A stretch of DNA of 12,481 nt from Deltaproteobacteria bacterium (lineage in GTDB: Bacteria; Desulfobacterota; DSM-4660; Desulfatiglandales; B25-G16). Positions 3,454 to 12,481 of the stretch are shown in pieces. Made by a program: the position numbers and the translations under genes. The DNA lies in assembly GCA_003646935.1 (NCBI GenBank), contig QMLW01000016.1, forward strand, positions 1-12,481. Direction: 5' to 3'. Each line of letters starts with the position of its first letter. The stretch's first letter is position 1. The notes below the pieces were generated by a model that did no database searches, was not told where the DNA came from, and worked only from the letters and a program-made list of their open reading frames with translations.

Positions 3454-4440
3454 CTATCCAGAGGGTGGAAAGAGGGCCTGAGCCACCTTTTCTACCATAC
3501 CCACGCCTCTAACCTCATTTTCAAAAAGGGGTATCTCACCGCAGACATTATCAAAAGATTGATACGCTTCTTCACGATACTTATCCTGCATCTTGATGCG
3601 GTTAATGATAAATTGAGCGGAATCTTTTCCCACTTCCGATTTATCGATAGCCTCGTTTATAATCACGCCGCCTATCGGTATTCCAAAATCCTTAAACCAG
3701 CCAATGAATCGGCGAATTACAGCAATGGGAAGAGACTCCAAAAGGGTCACAAAGAAAAAGGCACTTTTTTCCTCATCAGTCAAGAGGACTCTCATATGTT
3801 CTATCCTATCCCTAAACGTGGTGAGATACTCAAGCAATGGATCCTCTTCTTCTGCTACCTTCTTTTTCCGGAAGGAAAGGCTCAGCCTCATAGCCGCAGC
3901 TTCCTCCCGGCTTTTGTACATCTTGTCCACCCAGAGAGTATAGACCTTTGACATGCCTAAGAGCCTTCTGGCGTTTGCTGTAGGAGCAGTATCAAACACG
4001 TAAAACTCAAAGGCGTCTTCAAACATAATATTTATCATGTTCTCGAACATGGCCGACTCTTCAAATGCCGGATTCATAGTGGCAGACTCTATAAAATCAT
4101 CAGCCTTTGTGGGAATGTCGGCAAACTTAAGAAACCAGCTTATCTTTTCCCGGATCTCGCTCTTTGATCTTTCTATGGTGTCTTTTGTATCTATCTCCTG
4201 GACATAAAGATTTTCTGTCCCCGGTATTAACACGGGTTTTCCAAAGACATCCTGTTTGAAAAGGTTTGACAGGCTATGCACGGGATTTGTAGAGGCCAGG
4301 AGTGTCCTTTTACCCTGTTGTGCCATCCATAGTGCCACAGCCGCTGCAACAACCGTTTTGCCAACTCCCCCCTTTCCACCAAAGTAGGTGTATCTCATCT
4401 GGGGATGTCTCTTAAAGAAATCTTCCACGGTAGCTTTCAT
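3454..4440 (-). CDS. ArsA/Get3-like P-loop ATPase 2 (Asp-to-Asn in switch I)
   Basis: This 328-residue ArsA/Get3-type SIMIBI ATPase has the deviant Walker A GGKGGVGKT (21-29) and switch II DTAPTANARRL (150-160, family DTAPTGHTLRL). Switch I reads STNPVHSL, with Asn52 where ArsA and Get3 have the catalytic Asp of STDPAHSL. The Get3 Asp-to-Asn change is known to cripple hydrolysis, so this subunit may bind but not efficiently hydrolyse ATP (inference). The only Cys visible is in VCGEIPLF near the C-terminus, so there is no arsenite-binding Cys triad and no Get3 zinc CxxC. It is a paralog of the upstream gene, which it overlaps by 4 bp (ATGA), a sign of translational coupling; AGGAG lies eight bases before the ATG. 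It is the last gene of the cstA operon. Arsenic transport is unlikely despite the usual ArsA label. Confidence 0.92.
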   Translation of the reverse strand: MKATVEDFFKRHPQMRYTYFGGKGGVGKTVVAAAVALWMAQQGKRTLLASTNPVHSLSNLFKQDVFGKPVLIPGTENLYVQEIDTKDTIERSKSEIREKISWFLKFADIPTKADDFIESATMNPAFEESAMFENMINIMFEDAFEFYVFDTAPTANARRLLGMSKVYTLWVDKMYKSREEAAAMRLSLSFRKKKVAEEEDPLLEYLTTFRDRIEHMRVLLTDEEKSAFFFVTLLESLPIAVIRRFIGWFKDFGIPIGGVIINEAIDKSEVGKDSAQFIINRIKMQDKYREEAYQSFDNVCGEIPLFENEVRGVGMVEKVAQALFPPSG

Positions 4441-5420
4441 GATAATTTCTCCTCAAACATTACTTCTGCGAGATCTCTAATCACATCAAGCCCTTTTATC
4501 TCGGAATCGAATTCTGGAACAGCTGAAAGCACGGAAGAGCCAAATTTTGTATCAATCATCTCAAGGGCGCCGACCTGCATCTCTATCCTGTTCTTTAGAT
4601 ATGTTGGTATGTTATCTTTCAACAATTCCCTGTTAATGACCCGATTTACTATATATCCCGAAAGAGGCACCTTATATTTGGCAAAAAGCTGTGCCGCCTT
4701 TTCAGTATCCACTATGGTCATCTCTTCCGGGGTAAGCACGAAGAAAAAGGCGGTCTTTTCAGTATCTGTCATGATCTTGGAGGAACTTCCTATCCGATCC
4801 TTTATGTACATCAATTCGTTATATATCTCGTCCTGTTCTGTATCTTCCTCCCGCTTCATGGTAGCAATAGCCTTGTCATATTCCTTCATCTGCTCCCTCA
4901 GGCCGGTAATCTTTTCCAGCCACGCATCGTAGATGGATGCCATACTTAAATAGTAAAGGGCATGGCCCAGGGGGACGAGGTCATAAATGTAGTAGTCGAA
5001 ATCCCCTTTCACCACAATATCGACCACTGCATCGAAGATGGCGCTTTCCTCCATAGCTGGCTCAGCTGAGGAGGCCCTTATATAGTCTTCTATTTCCTCA
5101 GGGATCTTCTTCATGCCGTACATTGATATGATCTTCTGCCGTATTTCCTCCTGATAGTCCCGAACCCTCTTATCGGCATCGACCTCACAGGCAAAGAGGT
5201 TTTCCATTATCTCAACGTTTCCCTTGCCAAAGATATCGCGCTCGAATATATCGCTGAGCGATGCCTGTGGATCAACGGAGAATACGAGCACCCTTTTCCC
5301 CTTCTTTGCAAGGTAATAGGCCGTTGCCGCTGAAAAGGTGGTCTTGCCAAGCCCTCCCTTTCCACCATACATGAGGTATCTTCTGTTGGGATACCGTTCA
5401 AAGAAATCAACAAGGGACAT
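4437..5420 (-). CDS. ArsA/Get3-like P-loop ATPase 1 (altered switch II)
   Basis: This 327-residue paralog of the following ATPase starts MSLVDFFERYPNRRYLMYGG. Walker A GGKGGLGKTT is at 19-28, and switch I keeps the catalytic Asp (VDPQASLSD, Asp50). Switch II, normally DTAPTGHTL, is changed to DLVPLGHAL (147-155), losing both Thr residues. PAMEESAIFDAV (121-132) is shared with the partner (PAFEESAMFENM). The single Cys at 78 rules out the ArsA metalloid site. AGGAGG lies four bases before the ATG. About 76 bases separate it from the small gene upstream with no terminator seen, so it belongs to the cstA operon. With its neighbour it may form a heterodimer equivalent to the two fused halves of ArsA. 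The client or partner is unknown; the adjacent paired small proteins are the obvious candidates. Confidence 0.92.
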   Translation of the reverse strand: MSLVDFFERYPNRRYLMYGGKGGLGKTTFSAATAYYLAKKGKRVLVFSVDPQASLSDIFERDIFGKGNVEIMENLFACEVDADKRVRDYQEEIRQKIISMYGMKKIPEEIEDYIRASSAEPAMEESAIFDAVVDIVVKGDFDYYIYDLVPLGHALYYLSMASIYDAWLEKITGLREQMKEYDKAIATMKREEDTEQDEIYNELMYIKDRIGSSSKIMTDTEKTAFFFVLTPEEMTIVDTEKAAQLFAKYKVPLSGYIVNRVINRELLKDNIPTYLKNRIEMQVGALEMIDTKFGSSVLSAVPEFDSEIKGLDVIRDLAEVMFEEKLS

Positions 5421-5496
5421 ATGTCCTCCTTTGTGGTTTGCTGGGTTTCTCGAGTTTTATGTTAAAATCCTATGAACTCAAGGAACTCAACAAACA

Positions 5497-5784
5497 TTAA
5501 TACATGCTATCCATGAGATCCTTTTCCCTCAGCATCCTGCGCTTCCAGGTGGTGATCTGGGGCACAACATGGGGGAGCAAGCGGAGTGAATAGTAAGGCG
5601 GAAGTATGGGAATGCCAAGCATGTCACCCATGGTGATAAGGATGAAAAGGTGCTCCATGCTGGAGCGTTGTTTAAGTGCATGCCTTGCCATGCCATGGGT
5701 TGCCATGCCATACGTAAAGTCTCTTACAAAACCTAAAACGCCTCCTGTACTCTTCCTTTTTTTCCCTTTCTTTTTCTCTTCCAT
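5497..5784 (-). CDS. Small paired protein 2 (95 aa, WKRR/LRE signature)
   Basis: This 95-residue protein has a very basic N-terminus (MEEKKKGKKRKS) and a hydrophobic centre (LFILITMGDMLGIPILPPYY, 46-65). It ends with LRLLP, WKRRMLRE (80-87) and D-x-x-D. From residue 43 on it aligns without gaps to the 85-aa protein encoded just upstream, sharing LF, G, G-x-P, YY-x-LRL, P, WKRR, LRE and two Asp. Its N-terminal half contains a duplicated pentapeptide (GMATH GMARH) encoded by a 12-bp direct repeat. The ATG has GGAG only two bases upstream, a poor spacing, and lies 20 bases after the previous stop, so coupled translation is likely. It may be a small membrane-associated adaptor for the ATPase pair. 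It resembles, from memory only, small proteins found beside ArsA-family ATPases (cory-CC-star type), but lacks a terminal Cys-Cys. Confidence 0.8.
   Translation of the reverse strand: MEEKKKGKKRKSTGGVLGFVRDFTYGMATHGMARHALKQRSSMEHLFILITMGDMLGIPILPPYYSLRLLPHVVPQITTWKRRMLREKDLMDSMY
5685..5711. repeat. 12-bp direct repeat (15-bp period) within small gene 2
   Basis: TTGCCATGCCAT occurs at 5685-5696 and again at 5700-5711, with 3 bases between. On the coding (-) strand it yields the tandem peptide GMATH GMARH. It probably arose by slippage inside the gene. The paralogous small gene 1 has no counterpart. Confidence 0.85.
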
Positions 5785-5804
5785 GGCTCCAATCTCTTTT
5801 AACG

Positions 5805-6062
5805 TTATTCCCTTATCTGATCAAAGAAATCCCTTTCCCTTAAAACCCTTCTCTTCCATGGTCCAAGTCTTTTAACATAGTAAGGGAAAAGCCTCAAATG
5901 GTAATAGTTAAAAAGGCCGGGGAACCCAATTGCTTTACCAACGAGGGCTACCATAAACAGGTCGTCCAGACAACGCTTTTCTTTGTATACTCCTCCTATC
6001 AGGTCGTACAGAAAAAATCCTTTTAGATAATCCTTTATCGTTTGTATCCAGGGGTATTTCAT
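5805..6062 (-). CDS. Small paired protein 1 (85 aa, WKRR/LRE signature)
   Basis: This 85-residue paralog of the next gene product has an aromatic, partly hydrophobic N-terminus (MKYPWIQTIKDYLKGFFLYD), a hydrophobic middle (LFMVALVGKAIGFPG, 35-49), NYYHLRLFPYY (52-62), then WKRRVLRERDFFDQ (69-82). It is too short and too charged at the end to be a classical multi-pass protein. One membrane-dipping or interfacial segment is plausible (inference). It lies between cstA (88 bases upstream) and small gene 2 (20 bases downstream). No good Shine-Dalgarno precedes the ATG: the only purine run is GGCAG directly before it, and a T-run after a stem-loop lies immediately upstream, so its translation or transcription may be controlled there. 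The function is unknown. Synteny suggests it links CstA, or another membrane client, to the ArsA/Get3-like ATPases. Confidence 0.8.
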   Translation of the reverse strand: MKYPWIQTIKDYLKGFFLYDLIGGVYKEKRCLDDLFMVALVGKAIGFPGLFNYYHLRLFPYYVKRLGPWKRRVLRERDFFDQIRE

Positions 6063-8759: not shown

Positions 8760-9104
8760 TTGAGAGATTTCATCAAGGTTATGAAGGCCCTTTCGGATCA
8801 AAACCGAGTCAAAATCGTTAAGATGCTCCAGCACAAGATGATGTGTGTCTGCGAGATCCAGGAGGCGCTCCGGATTGCACAGTCCAGTGTTTCCAAACAT
8901 CTGAAGATACTTGAAGAAGCGGGCCTTGTCGATTACCAAAAAGATGGCCTCTGGATGAACTATCATCTCACGGACGGAATGAAATCCCCATACGTAGCCA
9001 GTCTCATAGGAAACCTCCGGCACTGGCTGGAAGATGAGCCTGAAGTCAAAGAACTCATTAAAAGACTTCCTCATATCCGGCGAGAGGAAATCTGCAAGAG
9101 ATAA
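8760..9104 (+). CDS. arsR: ArsR-family arsenite-responsive repressor
   Basis: This 114-residue winged-helix repressor is the likely sensor of the downstream operon. It shows the ArsR core: KALSDQNRVKIVKML (9-23), then CVC (Cys29-Val-Cys31) at the start of the DNA-binding region, recognition helix SSVSKHLKILEEAGLV (42-57), and wing residues YQKDGLWMNYHL (59-70). The CVC pair is the As(III)/Sb(III) site of classical ArsR; the third Cys of E. coli ArsR is here replaced by Gln, and the only other Cys is 112. Translation starts with TTG, supported by AGGAG (8749-8753) six bases upstream and by agreement with family N-termini. It should repress its own promoter until arsenite binds (family knowledge). 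Confidence 0.93.
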   Translation: MRDFIKVMKALSDQNRVKIVKMLQHKMMCVCEIQEALRIAQSSVSKHLKILEEAGLVDYQKDGLWMNYHLTDGMKSPYVASLIGNLRHWLEDEPEVKELIKRLPHIRREEICKR

Positions 9105-9175: not shown

Positions 9176-9953
9176 ATGAAAGAGCGAACGAAACTGCTGA
9201 TAATCGTGCTGGCCTTCGCGGCAGCCTACTATATTCCCTGGGCACATGAAACAATCCGCCAATCAGGTCTTGAGGCATTCATGATGCTCCAGGAATATGC
9301 GCGGGAACACGTTGTAACCTGCCTGGTTCCCGCTTTTTTTATTGCGGGAGCCATTGCGGTTTTTGTCTCCCAGGCATCGGTTCTTAAATACTTCGGATCA
9401 ACGGCAAAGAAGATTTTGTCATATTATGTGGCCTCGGTATCCGGAACAGTGCTGGCGGTCTGCTCCTGTACCGTCCTTCCATTATTTGCAGGAATCTATA
9501 CACGCGGCGCCGGTATCGGACCGGCAACGGCCTTCCTGTATTCCGGTCCGGCCATTAACGTGCTTGCCATCGTGCTGACAGCCAGGATTCTGGGATGGCA
9601 ACTGGGGCTTGCCCGCGCCATCGGGGCTGTACTCTTTGCCATTTTGGCCGGACTTCTCATGGCCTTTTTCTTCAGGAAAGATGATGCAGAACGTACAGCA
9701 GGGCAGCTCTACCTCCAGGAAGAAGAGGAGAAAGGCCGGACGCTCACCCAGGAGGCCATTTTTATGCTCACCCTGGTCCTGATCCTCATTTTTGGTTTTT
9801 GCCACCGGCCACTGTCTTCCCATTGTGGCGGCGGGCAGCTCGACGGCGGCAGTAAAGAGGCTCCTGGACAACATCACCTGGCAGGGAGCCGGCGTGGTGA
9901 TCGTGATGTTGGGGGTTTACTTTATTGTTAACCCTTTTTTCTCATTTTTATAA
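9176..9953 (+). CDS. COG0701 permease, frameshifted and probably lacking its second half
   Basis: This is a polytopic membrane permease of the COG0701/DUF318 group, which includes ArsP-like transporters. The N-terminal half is intact: helices at about 6-22 and 46-70, then AVCSCTVLPLFAGIY (95-109, Cys96 and Cys98), GIGPATAF (113-120) and SGPAINVLAI (123-132), all typical. After residue about 205 the frame breaks. As written it runs to 9931 with a polar, unprotein-like tail. Dropping one T from TTTTT at 9789-9793 instead gives VLILILVFATGHCLP, then an Ala/Ser-rich stretch and a last helix VVIVMLGVYFIVNPFFSFL ending at 9953, about 258 residues. Family members I know have two related halves, so the C-terminal half seems absent. 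No clear ribosome binding site precedes the ATG. It could be a sequencing error in a T run, or a decaying gene. Confidence 0.85.
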
Positions 9954-10524: not shown

Positions 10525-11724
10525 ATGGCAATGGAAACAGAAAGGATAGAAGAGTTCAGAGGTCTGGGGTTTTTTGAAAAGTACCTCTATGTCTGGGTGA
10601 TCTTCTGTATTGTTGCCGGGATTATCCTTGGAAAGGTAGCCCCTGGTGTTGCAAACTACCTGGATGGATTGGCCATTTACGTGGGGCAAGCACCGGTGGT
10701 GTCCATACCCATCGCCATCTGCCTCTTCTTCATGATGTACCCCATCATGGTGAAGATCGATTTCGGAGAGGTGATCAAAGCCGGAAAAAGTGGAAAACCG
10801 GTTTTGCTCACGCTCTTCTTGAACTGGGCCATCAAGCCCTTCACCATGTACGGCATTGCTTTGTTTTTTCTCGGAACGGCCTTTTACGGTCTGATCGGAC
10901 CGGAGGCCGTCGATCATGTAAAAATGCCCTTTGGTCTCGATCTGCCGGTGGGCGCTGCCTACGGTGCAGGCAAGGTCATCATGGCCGGCGGGGTCAAGGT
11001 CCTGGAGGTTCCCCTGTGGCGAAGCTACCTGGCGGGCTGTATTTTGCTGGGGATTGCGCCTTGCACGGCCATGGTCCTTGTGTGGGGCTTTCTGGCTCGG
11101 GGAAACGACGGCCTCACCCTGGTCATGGTGGCCATCAATTCGCTTACCATGCTTGTGCTCTACGGAGTGCTCGGGGGGTTTTTGCTAGGTGTAGGACGAC
11201 TCCCGGTTCCCTGGCAGGCCCTGGTGCTTTCCATCGGTATATATGTGGCCTTGCCCCTGGTGGCCGGGTACATCTCCCGGAAGGCGATTATTAACGCCAA
11301 AGGAGAAGACTGGTTCAAAGGGAAGTTTCTTCACATACTAACGCCGATCACGATCATCGCGCTGCTCATAACCCTCATACTTCTTTTTTCCTTTAAAGGG
11401 GATGTGATTCTCTCAAACCCGCTCACCATACTCTGGATCGCCATCCCGCTCTTTATCCAGACCAACCTGATCTACTGGCTCGGCTATGGTCTGGCCCGAT
11501 GGCTCAAGCTCGAGTATCGGGACGCAGCCCCGGCGGCCATGATCGGAGCGTCCAACCACTTCGAGGTGGCTATTGCCGCGGCCACCATGCTCTTCGGGCT
11601 TTCATCGGGCGCGGCGCTTGCAACTGTGATCGGCGTGCTCATTGAGGTGCCCGTCATGCTCATGCTGGTGAAGATCTGTTTGAACACAACCCACTGGTTC
11701 TCACAGAGAGTGCCGGCGCCTTAA
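10525..11724 (+). CDS. acr3: ACR3 family arsenite efflux transporter
   Basis: This 399-residue inner-membrane carrier of the BART superfamily has about ten helices and exports arsenite using the proton-motive force. Signatures visible are [15 protein letters not shown] (69-83), the NWAIKPFTM motif (100-108), the essential Cys in [15 protein letters not shown] (Cys180), and [11 protein letters not shown] in the late helices. Compared with ordinary ACR3 it has a long loop between helices 4 and 5 (about residues 120-160, rich in Gly, Val and Lys). The start is secure, with AGGAG seven bases before the ATG. It follows the Fe-S gene by 31 bases and precedes the DUF1573 gene by 21 bases. It is the main detoxification step of the operon. 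Confidence 0.96.
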
Positions 11725-11745
11725 GAAAACAGGGGAGGAGAGAAG

Positions 11746-12481
11746 ATGTTAGAGATCAAGAAAACCGCCATTGCCCTCGATGAGATGTCTATGAATTTGA
11801 AAAAGCATTGGTTTCTTGGGTTGATCTCTTTCTCCATGTTGCTCTTTTGGTGCTGCTCTTCCCTGGCCCAGGAGACCAAGGGACCAAAAATAGTCTTAAA
11901 GGAGCGGACATTCGATTTCAAGAAAGTAAGAGAAGGTGAAGTTATCTCGCACACCTTTGCGGTCCGCAACGAAGGAGATCACGTCCTCGAGATAATCCGG
12001 GTGAAACCGGGGTGAGGCTGTTCCTTGGCCTCTTTTGACAGGGCCGTTCCCCCGGGTGGGGAGGGAAGGATTACACTCATGGTTCGGACAAAAGGGTACC
12101 AGGGGGCCCACCGCTGGAGCGCCAAGGTTAATACTAATGACCCCAGAACGAATGTGGCCCTTTTGAGCGTAAAGGCCTTTGTTCAGGTCCCCGTATACGT
12201 GAATCCCCGCTATGTTCGCCTCTACGGGAGGGAGGATGCAACGGTAACAAGGGGTGTTGAAATAGAGGCAGGACTTGATAAACCGCTCACGCTGAAACCG
12301 GGCCGATTCAACCTTGCAGGGAAAGTAACCTATATTATTGTTGAGGTAGACAAAGGCCGAAGGTTCAAGGTCTCTTTTACCAGCATCAGGGGGATTGCGG
12401 GCTTGTACAGGGGGCTTCTTACCCTCGAGACTAATTATGAGGAGAAACCCCTTGTCACTATCTGGATCAGCGGTCGGTTTG
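11746..12481 (+). CDS. Exported DUF1573 protein with in-frame TGA, probable selenoprotein (3' partial)
   Basis: The gene starts at an ATG with GGAGG seven bases upstream, 21 bases after acr3. An N-terminal signal segment (about 22-41) ends SSLA-QE, a likely signal peptidase I site, so the protein is periplasmic or surface exposed. Residues 48-88 are a DUF1573 Ig-like domain (ERTFDFKKVREGEVISHTF, then EIIRVKP). Codon 90 is TGA (12013-12015). The same frame then continues without any stop for 155 codons to the window edge, first with GCSLASFDRAVPPGGEGRIT, the normal DUF1573 continuation. The family motif is V-x-x-x-Cys-Gly-Cys-Thr; TGA replaces the first Cys, giving Sec-Gly-Cys-Ser. A second beta-rich domain follows from NPRYVRLYG. 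Read as a normal gene it would stop at 89 residues. A recent nonsense mutation or a read error are the alternatives. Confidence in the frame is high; confidence in selenocysteine is moderate. Confidence 0.75.
12016..12063 (+). promoter_or_regulatory. Possible bacterial SECIS hairpins just after the TGA
   Basis: Two foldings were found by eye. In the first, GGCTGTT (12016-12022) pairs with GACAG plus CC (12037-12041, 12044-12045, two bases bulged), leaving a 14-base loop containing GG. In the second, TTCCCC (12047-12052) pairs with GGGGAG (12058-12063) around the loop CGGGT. Bacterial SECIS elements start close to UGA and have G at the tip. The second tip is about 38 bases away, at the far edge. 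Energy was not computed. Confidence 0.3.

Follow-up and report, generated by a model that had tools for sequence, protein, structure and literature searches.

Selenoproteins with a DUF1573 domain have appeared in published lists since 2007-2008, so that the family, OS_HP2, is already known. In its accessible text, a 2008 paper (PMC2398784) lists OS_HP2 with pfam07610, a UxC motif and the figures 2, 2 and 354, which we take to be counts of Sec and Cys sequences. The accessible parts of two later reviews, PMC9312934 (2022) and PMC13188914 (2026), carry the entry "DUF1573 domain-containing protein, UGC", citing Zhang and Gladyshev 2007; that of PMC8318568 does not name DUF1573. The 2026 paper, as far as its text was accessible, also places an SO_0444 transporter and the Sao proteins alongside selenoproteins that have been implicated in resistance to metals or metalloids. 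A model for the family, NF041425 (OS_HP2 family (seleno)protein), exists in NCBIfam. A preliminary description of the locus studied here had called its gene a probable new selenoprotein and had known of no described DUF1573 selenoprotein. Since OS_HP2, a DUF1573 protein with Sec-x-Cys, stands in NCBIfam and in the accessible text of these three lists, both statements fall, whereas the reasoning about the TGA codon itself was right. In the titles and abstracts of the literature searched, which leaves most subscription journals outside its coverage, no link between OS_HP2 and arsenic genes was found, and the association of one branch of the family with an arsenite pump and thiol-reducing proteins seems to have been little noticed.

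The window, by which we mean the whole stretch of DNA analysed, is an entire contig (G000:C16, 12,481 bases) from a draft genome of 2.38 Mb in 429 contigs that is 73.9% complete. The OS_HP2 gene lies at its end (11746..12481, + strand) and starts with ATG at 11746, behind a purine-rich stretch recognized by eye as a likely ribosome binding site (GGGGAGGAGAG, 11732..11742, + strand). An in-frame TGA forms codon 90 (12013..12015, + strand) and is followed by 155 open codons up to the contig end; when the 465 bases downstream of the TGA were shuffled, the frame stayed open in 11 of 20,000 cases. Read with selenocysteine, the gene encodes 245 residues with the motif VKPGUGCS, in which the TGA supplies the first position of Sec-Gly-Cys after Pro-Gly. 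The PF07610 (DUF1573) match, at 57 bits, covers residues 50-144 and thus crosses the TGA, and a signal-peptide-like stretch can be recognized by eye at about residues 14-42. The open frame on both sides of the TGA, the continuous DUF1573 domain and the motif had all been proposed from the sequence beforehand, and all are borne out; the signal-peptide-like start, as judged by eye, fits the export also assumed there.

Because the window is the whole contig, the natural stop of the gene is absent from the sequence. The position of the stop can nevertheless be estimated from P0079, a metagenome protein from a 69 kb contig that shares 96% of its aligned residues with the window protein; its C-terminus lies 8 residues beyond the window end, which places the expected stop about 8 codons on. 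With Sec entered as Cys, the window protein passes the NF041425 cut-off of 100 narrowly, at 101.8 bits. A paralogue from the same genome (107.0 bits) and seven further relatives tested, one of them the Cys form, pass it too.

A PF07610 search of this genome returned two genes, each with one TGA inside the match. The second is the paralogue, a complete gene whose product is 47% identical to the window protein and which has its TGA at the same motif position. The preliminary description had also called for a look at the selenocysteine machinery, and three of its four genes were found: selC, the tRNA-Sec gene (73.8 bits; anticodon tca according to ARAGORN), selA (600.7 bits) and selD (394 bits), which is of the Sec type and carries a Sec codon of its own within the motif GAGUACK. 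No selB scored above the cut-off in this 73.9% complete assembly, for which the missing quarter of the genome is the simplest explanation. Within the class, the selB cut-off was exceeded by 66 of 85 genomes and that of selA by 73 of 85. A relative of the window protein is present in 69 of the 85, with a TGA inside the match in 68, and selA was matched in 63 of those 68. Thirty loci from this class search, the window's own included, were examined for where exactly the TGA falls, and all 30 have it at the Sec position, one of them when shifted by one codon.

When public genome contigs were scanned, 192 stretches matched, 148 of which encode relatives, and the best 80 of these 148 were kept. At the Sec position, 78 of the best 80 have TGA (one of them with a shift of one codon), one has TGC and one ACA, so that the expected homologs with Sec or Cys at this position do exist. 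The TGC locus, L077, encodes Cys, and the protein P0104 likewise carries CGC instead of Sec-Gly-Cys. In the ACA locus, L072, Thr replaces Sec and the remaining protein is kept, a natural replacement of the residue. Among 108 database homologues, 105 start downstream of the Sec residue, and in 94 of these the start lies 3-6 residues past it; this is the pattern expected when gene callers take the TGA as a stop, and it means that the family is widely mis-annotated.

Directly after the TGA lies a putative bacterial SECIS hairpin (12026..12046, + strand; 5' arm 12026-12031, 3' arm 12041-12046). Its folding was analysed in 80 genes, L072 and L077, which have no TGA, being left out and the window gene and the paralogue added. 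Aligned at the TGA, the 80 genes show a sharp peak of mean folding in the 45-base segment that begins at +12. The peak departs from the GC trend by 17 standard errors, a figure that overlooks the relatedness of the genes by counting them as independent. The RNA from +12 to +36 was compared with synonymous-codon randomisations; it gave a mean Z of -2.54, and 97% of the 80 genes lay below their own mean. As these randomisations keep the protein, the folding signal goes beyond protein coding alone. In the seven-pair consensus stem, 79.6% of cells are paired; shuffles reach 73.4%, and sliding the register lowers the figure to 30-47%. Third-codon-position pairs of the hairpin change together: columns 15 and 33, both third positions, hold GC in 40 genes, CG in 8, UG in 7, UA in 6, GU in 3 and AU in 2, and are unpaired in 13. 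Two of five pair measures did not exceed shuffles in the full set; for pairs with both partners changed, a value as high arose in 471 of 500 shuffles, and for further pair types in 211 of 500. In 11 loci (L071, L075, L081, L087, L090, L091, L093, L094, L095, L097 and L099), all from one branch, the stem is kept with a one-base shift: 59 of their 66 cells pair in the shifted register and 28 of 66 in the main one, compared with 344 of 414 cells pairing in the main register among the other 69 sequences. The stem thus appears, from these pairings, to have changed register during evolution.

In the window gene, six of the seven consensus stem pairs can form, and over +12..+36 the stability of its fold is equalled or surpassed by 8 of 500 randomisations. 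Folding is ordinary over +3..+36 (144 of 500 randomisations as low), +9..+42 (12 of 100) and +12..+57 (31 of 100), and the lowest-energy structure of a 54-base fold is another hairpin. Over +12..+36 the signal is also weak in the paralogue (151 of 500 randomisations as low) and in two members of its clade, L021 (233 of 500) and L024 (238 of 500). The suggested SECIS search therefore gives a hairpin conserved at the level of the family (n=80), with the window gene by itself standing out for +12..+36 only.

These results bear on how the TGA should be read. A change of the code throughout the genome is rejected, as 2 of 13 further reading frames examined in the window still end in TGA. Had the codon arisen by a nonsense mutation or a sequencing error, the gene would be a pseudogene or the codon should be Cys; the Cys codon in L077 (one of the best 80 of 148 relatives) and the CGC of P0104 would agree with this, as would the damage nearby, where a permease on the same contig is broken. 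Such an origin is nonetheless extremely improbable given the recurrence of TGA at this codon in nearly all of the best 80 of 148 relatives and in the paralogue, the frames of relatives that stay open over normal lengths, and the gene call of P0079, which starts four codons past the TGA position and so fits a TGA there. The codon might otherwise be a true stop between two proteins, the second translated from an internal TTG at 12025, and gene callers do annotate such downstream pieces. However, the Pfam match and the first Ig-like domain of the structure model both run across the TGA, the downstream piece has no signal-peptide-like start, and at the place expected for a SECIS element there is a hairpin found across the family, so that we consider two proteins very improbable. 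On the grounds of the recurrent TGA, the open frames, the homologue starts behind the Sec position and the paralogue, we reject pseudogene, sequencing error and two genes alike, and conclude that the TGA stands for selenocysteine and is not damage, as the preliminary description had argued against a random nonsense mutation. The window gene thus almost certainly encodes selenocysteine at codon 90, its product being a member of the OS_HP2 (DUF1573) family; SelB and tRNA-Sec would decode the TGA, with the hairpin serving as the SECIS element.

The structure model of the protein (pLDDT 93.7, pTM 0.74) shows an N-terminal helix followed by two tandem strand-rich domains, predicted to be Ig-like and to span residues ~48-147 and ~148-245. 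The modelled Sec is located at a turn before the strand formed by residues 92-97. The matches listed by Foldseek and VIA-align are Ig-like as well, namely of the PapD/ASH/HYDIN type and domains of Vibrio VesB and VesC. No significant relative emerged when solved structures were searched by sequence, the best E-values being 0.021 with the single sequence and 0.079 with a profile.

Immediately upstream of the OS_HP2 gene lies a gene for an ACR3 arsenite efflux transporter (10525..11724, + strand), which scores 371.7 bits with TIGR00832 (cut-off 282.8) and corroborates the arsenite pump named in the preliminary description. It is preceded on the same strand by genes for a small protein whose C-terminus carries an Fe-S motif (PF04060; 9969..10493, + strand), a broken permease and an ArsR/SmtB-type regulator (8760..9104, + strand). 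The permease region (9176-9953) combines an intact N-terminal part of about 210 residues from an ArsP_1 permease, SO_0444/SaoE-like (9176..9795, + strand), with the C-terminal ~50 residues of a DsbD/CcdA-like protein (9792..9953, + strand), a remnant that is 61% identical to residues 176-232 of the DsbD_TM protein of the related locus L020. In that locus the order is ArsR, ArsP-like permease, Thioredoxin_3, a DGC domain protein, a SurA-thioredoxin fusion, DsbD_TM, a short piece of the Fe-S gene, ACR3, OS_HP2, rhodanese and MauE. Compared with L020, the window lacks nearly 3 kb, comprising the rest of the permease, Trx_3, DGC, SurA-Trx and most of DsbD. A frameshifted permease gene is ruled out by this comparison, which shows the join to the DsbD end; the join may be a real deletion or an assembly chimera. 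Trx_3, DGC, SurA-Trx, rhodanese and MauE gave no tblastn match in the window, whose contig ends at the OS_HP2 gene. Further upstream, on the opposite strand (3454-6062), are two adjacent ArsA/GET3-family ATPase genes with two small proteins, alike by eye, before them, the first of which (5805-6062) matches cory-CC-star weakly (36.4 bits, cut-off 80). A Sec codon at the end of these two small genes was considered and ruled out, as both end in TAA.

A tree of 79 sequences was calculated, with L065, L075 and L054 left out as incomplete. The window gene falls into a clade of six with support of 99/95, and in all six ACR3 lies upstream on the same strand within ~2 kb. The ACR3 proteins of four members are 81-91% identical to that of the window; L049, on a long branch, carries a different ACR3 with 31% identity. 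The arsenic-linked loci as a whole do not form one clade: with arsenic and Rex labels set by hand from the neighbourhood data (the latter on 15 of the 16 loci with Rex), the arsenic label needs 4 changes, compared with a shuffled mean of 9.6. Neighbours were named from a family scan of sample members, and tblastn among the best 80 of 148 relatives located ACR3 near 8, ArsP near 9, DsbD near 9, ArsR near 8, Trx_3 near 8 and SurA-Trx near 9, all on the same strand; the PF04060 protein was matched near 8 of these 80. An arsenic-type gene lies near 12 of the best 80 of 148, in one case ArsR alone. Many loci have short flanks, and these counts are therefore minima. A second context (L027-L056, L066) has the Rex redox repressor upstream in 16 and RNase H downstream in 19 of the best 80 of 148, on the same strand, and at other loci the neighbours are PriA, methionyl-tRNA formyltransferase or HAD. 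With arsenic-type genes near 12, Rex near 16 and RNase H near 19 of the best 80 of 148, arsenic is not the general role of the family.

As to function, the window protein is probably an exported thiol/selenol protein, in which Sec-Gly-Cys would form a reactive selenol/thiol pair presented at a turn within Ig-like domain 1. A DsbD-type membrane protein and an exported thioredoxin, whose genes adjoin in relatives, might keep this pair reduced in the branch linked to ACR3, and the reduced pair might then bind or reduce a metal or metalloid outside the cytoplasmic membrane, with arsenite as the first candidate. On the evidence of sequence and neighbourhood, the likeliest working model would accordingly be a periplasmic selenol/thiol protein that is reduced from the cytoplasm and handles a soft metal or metalloid. 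The metalloid binding suggested beforehand for Sec-Gly-Cys would be plausible; a metalloid role of the window protein may exist, albeit with doubt outweighing confidence. The same selenoprotein could just as well serve general thiol redox in the envelope or have a structural role, its adjacency to ACR3 reflecting shared stress regulation. The neighbourhoods with Rex and RNase H, and with PriA or methionyl-tRNA formyltransferase elsewhere, speak for this, as do the DsbD and thioredoxin genes within the metalloid cluster. Against it, the grouping of the six ACR3-adjacent genes in one supported clade suggests a lasting partnership with ACR3, yet L049 sits there on its long branch with a divergent pump; we hold a general role to be close to evenly balanced, slightly on the doubtful side. 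The more specific proposal, that one OS_HP2 branch is a periplasmic metalloid-handling selenoprotein which, with its Sec-Gly-Cys held in the reduced state by DsbD and thioredoxin, captures or reduces arsenite or a thioarsenical outside the membrane together with ACR3 and the ArsP-like permease, we regard as rather unlikely. If true, it would amount to a selenium-dependent arsenic detoxification module in deltaproteobacteria, and the ACR3/DsbD/thioredoxin neighbourhood offers a concrete, testable set of partners for one branch of the family.

The layout of the window protein, a CxC motif on an Ig fold, presumably resembles that of the copper chaperone Cox11; no Cox11 entry is among the matches listed by Foldseek or VIA-align, which counts neither for nor against the likeness. 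With the PapD/ASH/HYDIN-like proteins and VesB/VesC the likeness seen is one of fold alone, not of motif or function. Weak matches to both the SO_0444 and the SaoE models are given by the window permease, which has CSC and no Sec, and by its intact relative from L020; even this intact protein remains far below both cut-offs. None of the nine proteins scanned passed a Sao or Tso model. The closest described system is OS_HP2 itself (NF041425; PF07610), with which the window protein shares the Sec-x-Cys motif, the DUF1573 domain and deltaproteobacterial relatives. Nothing that defines the family differs, and what is found here in addition is the second Ig-like domain of the structure model and the neighbouring ACR3 gene.
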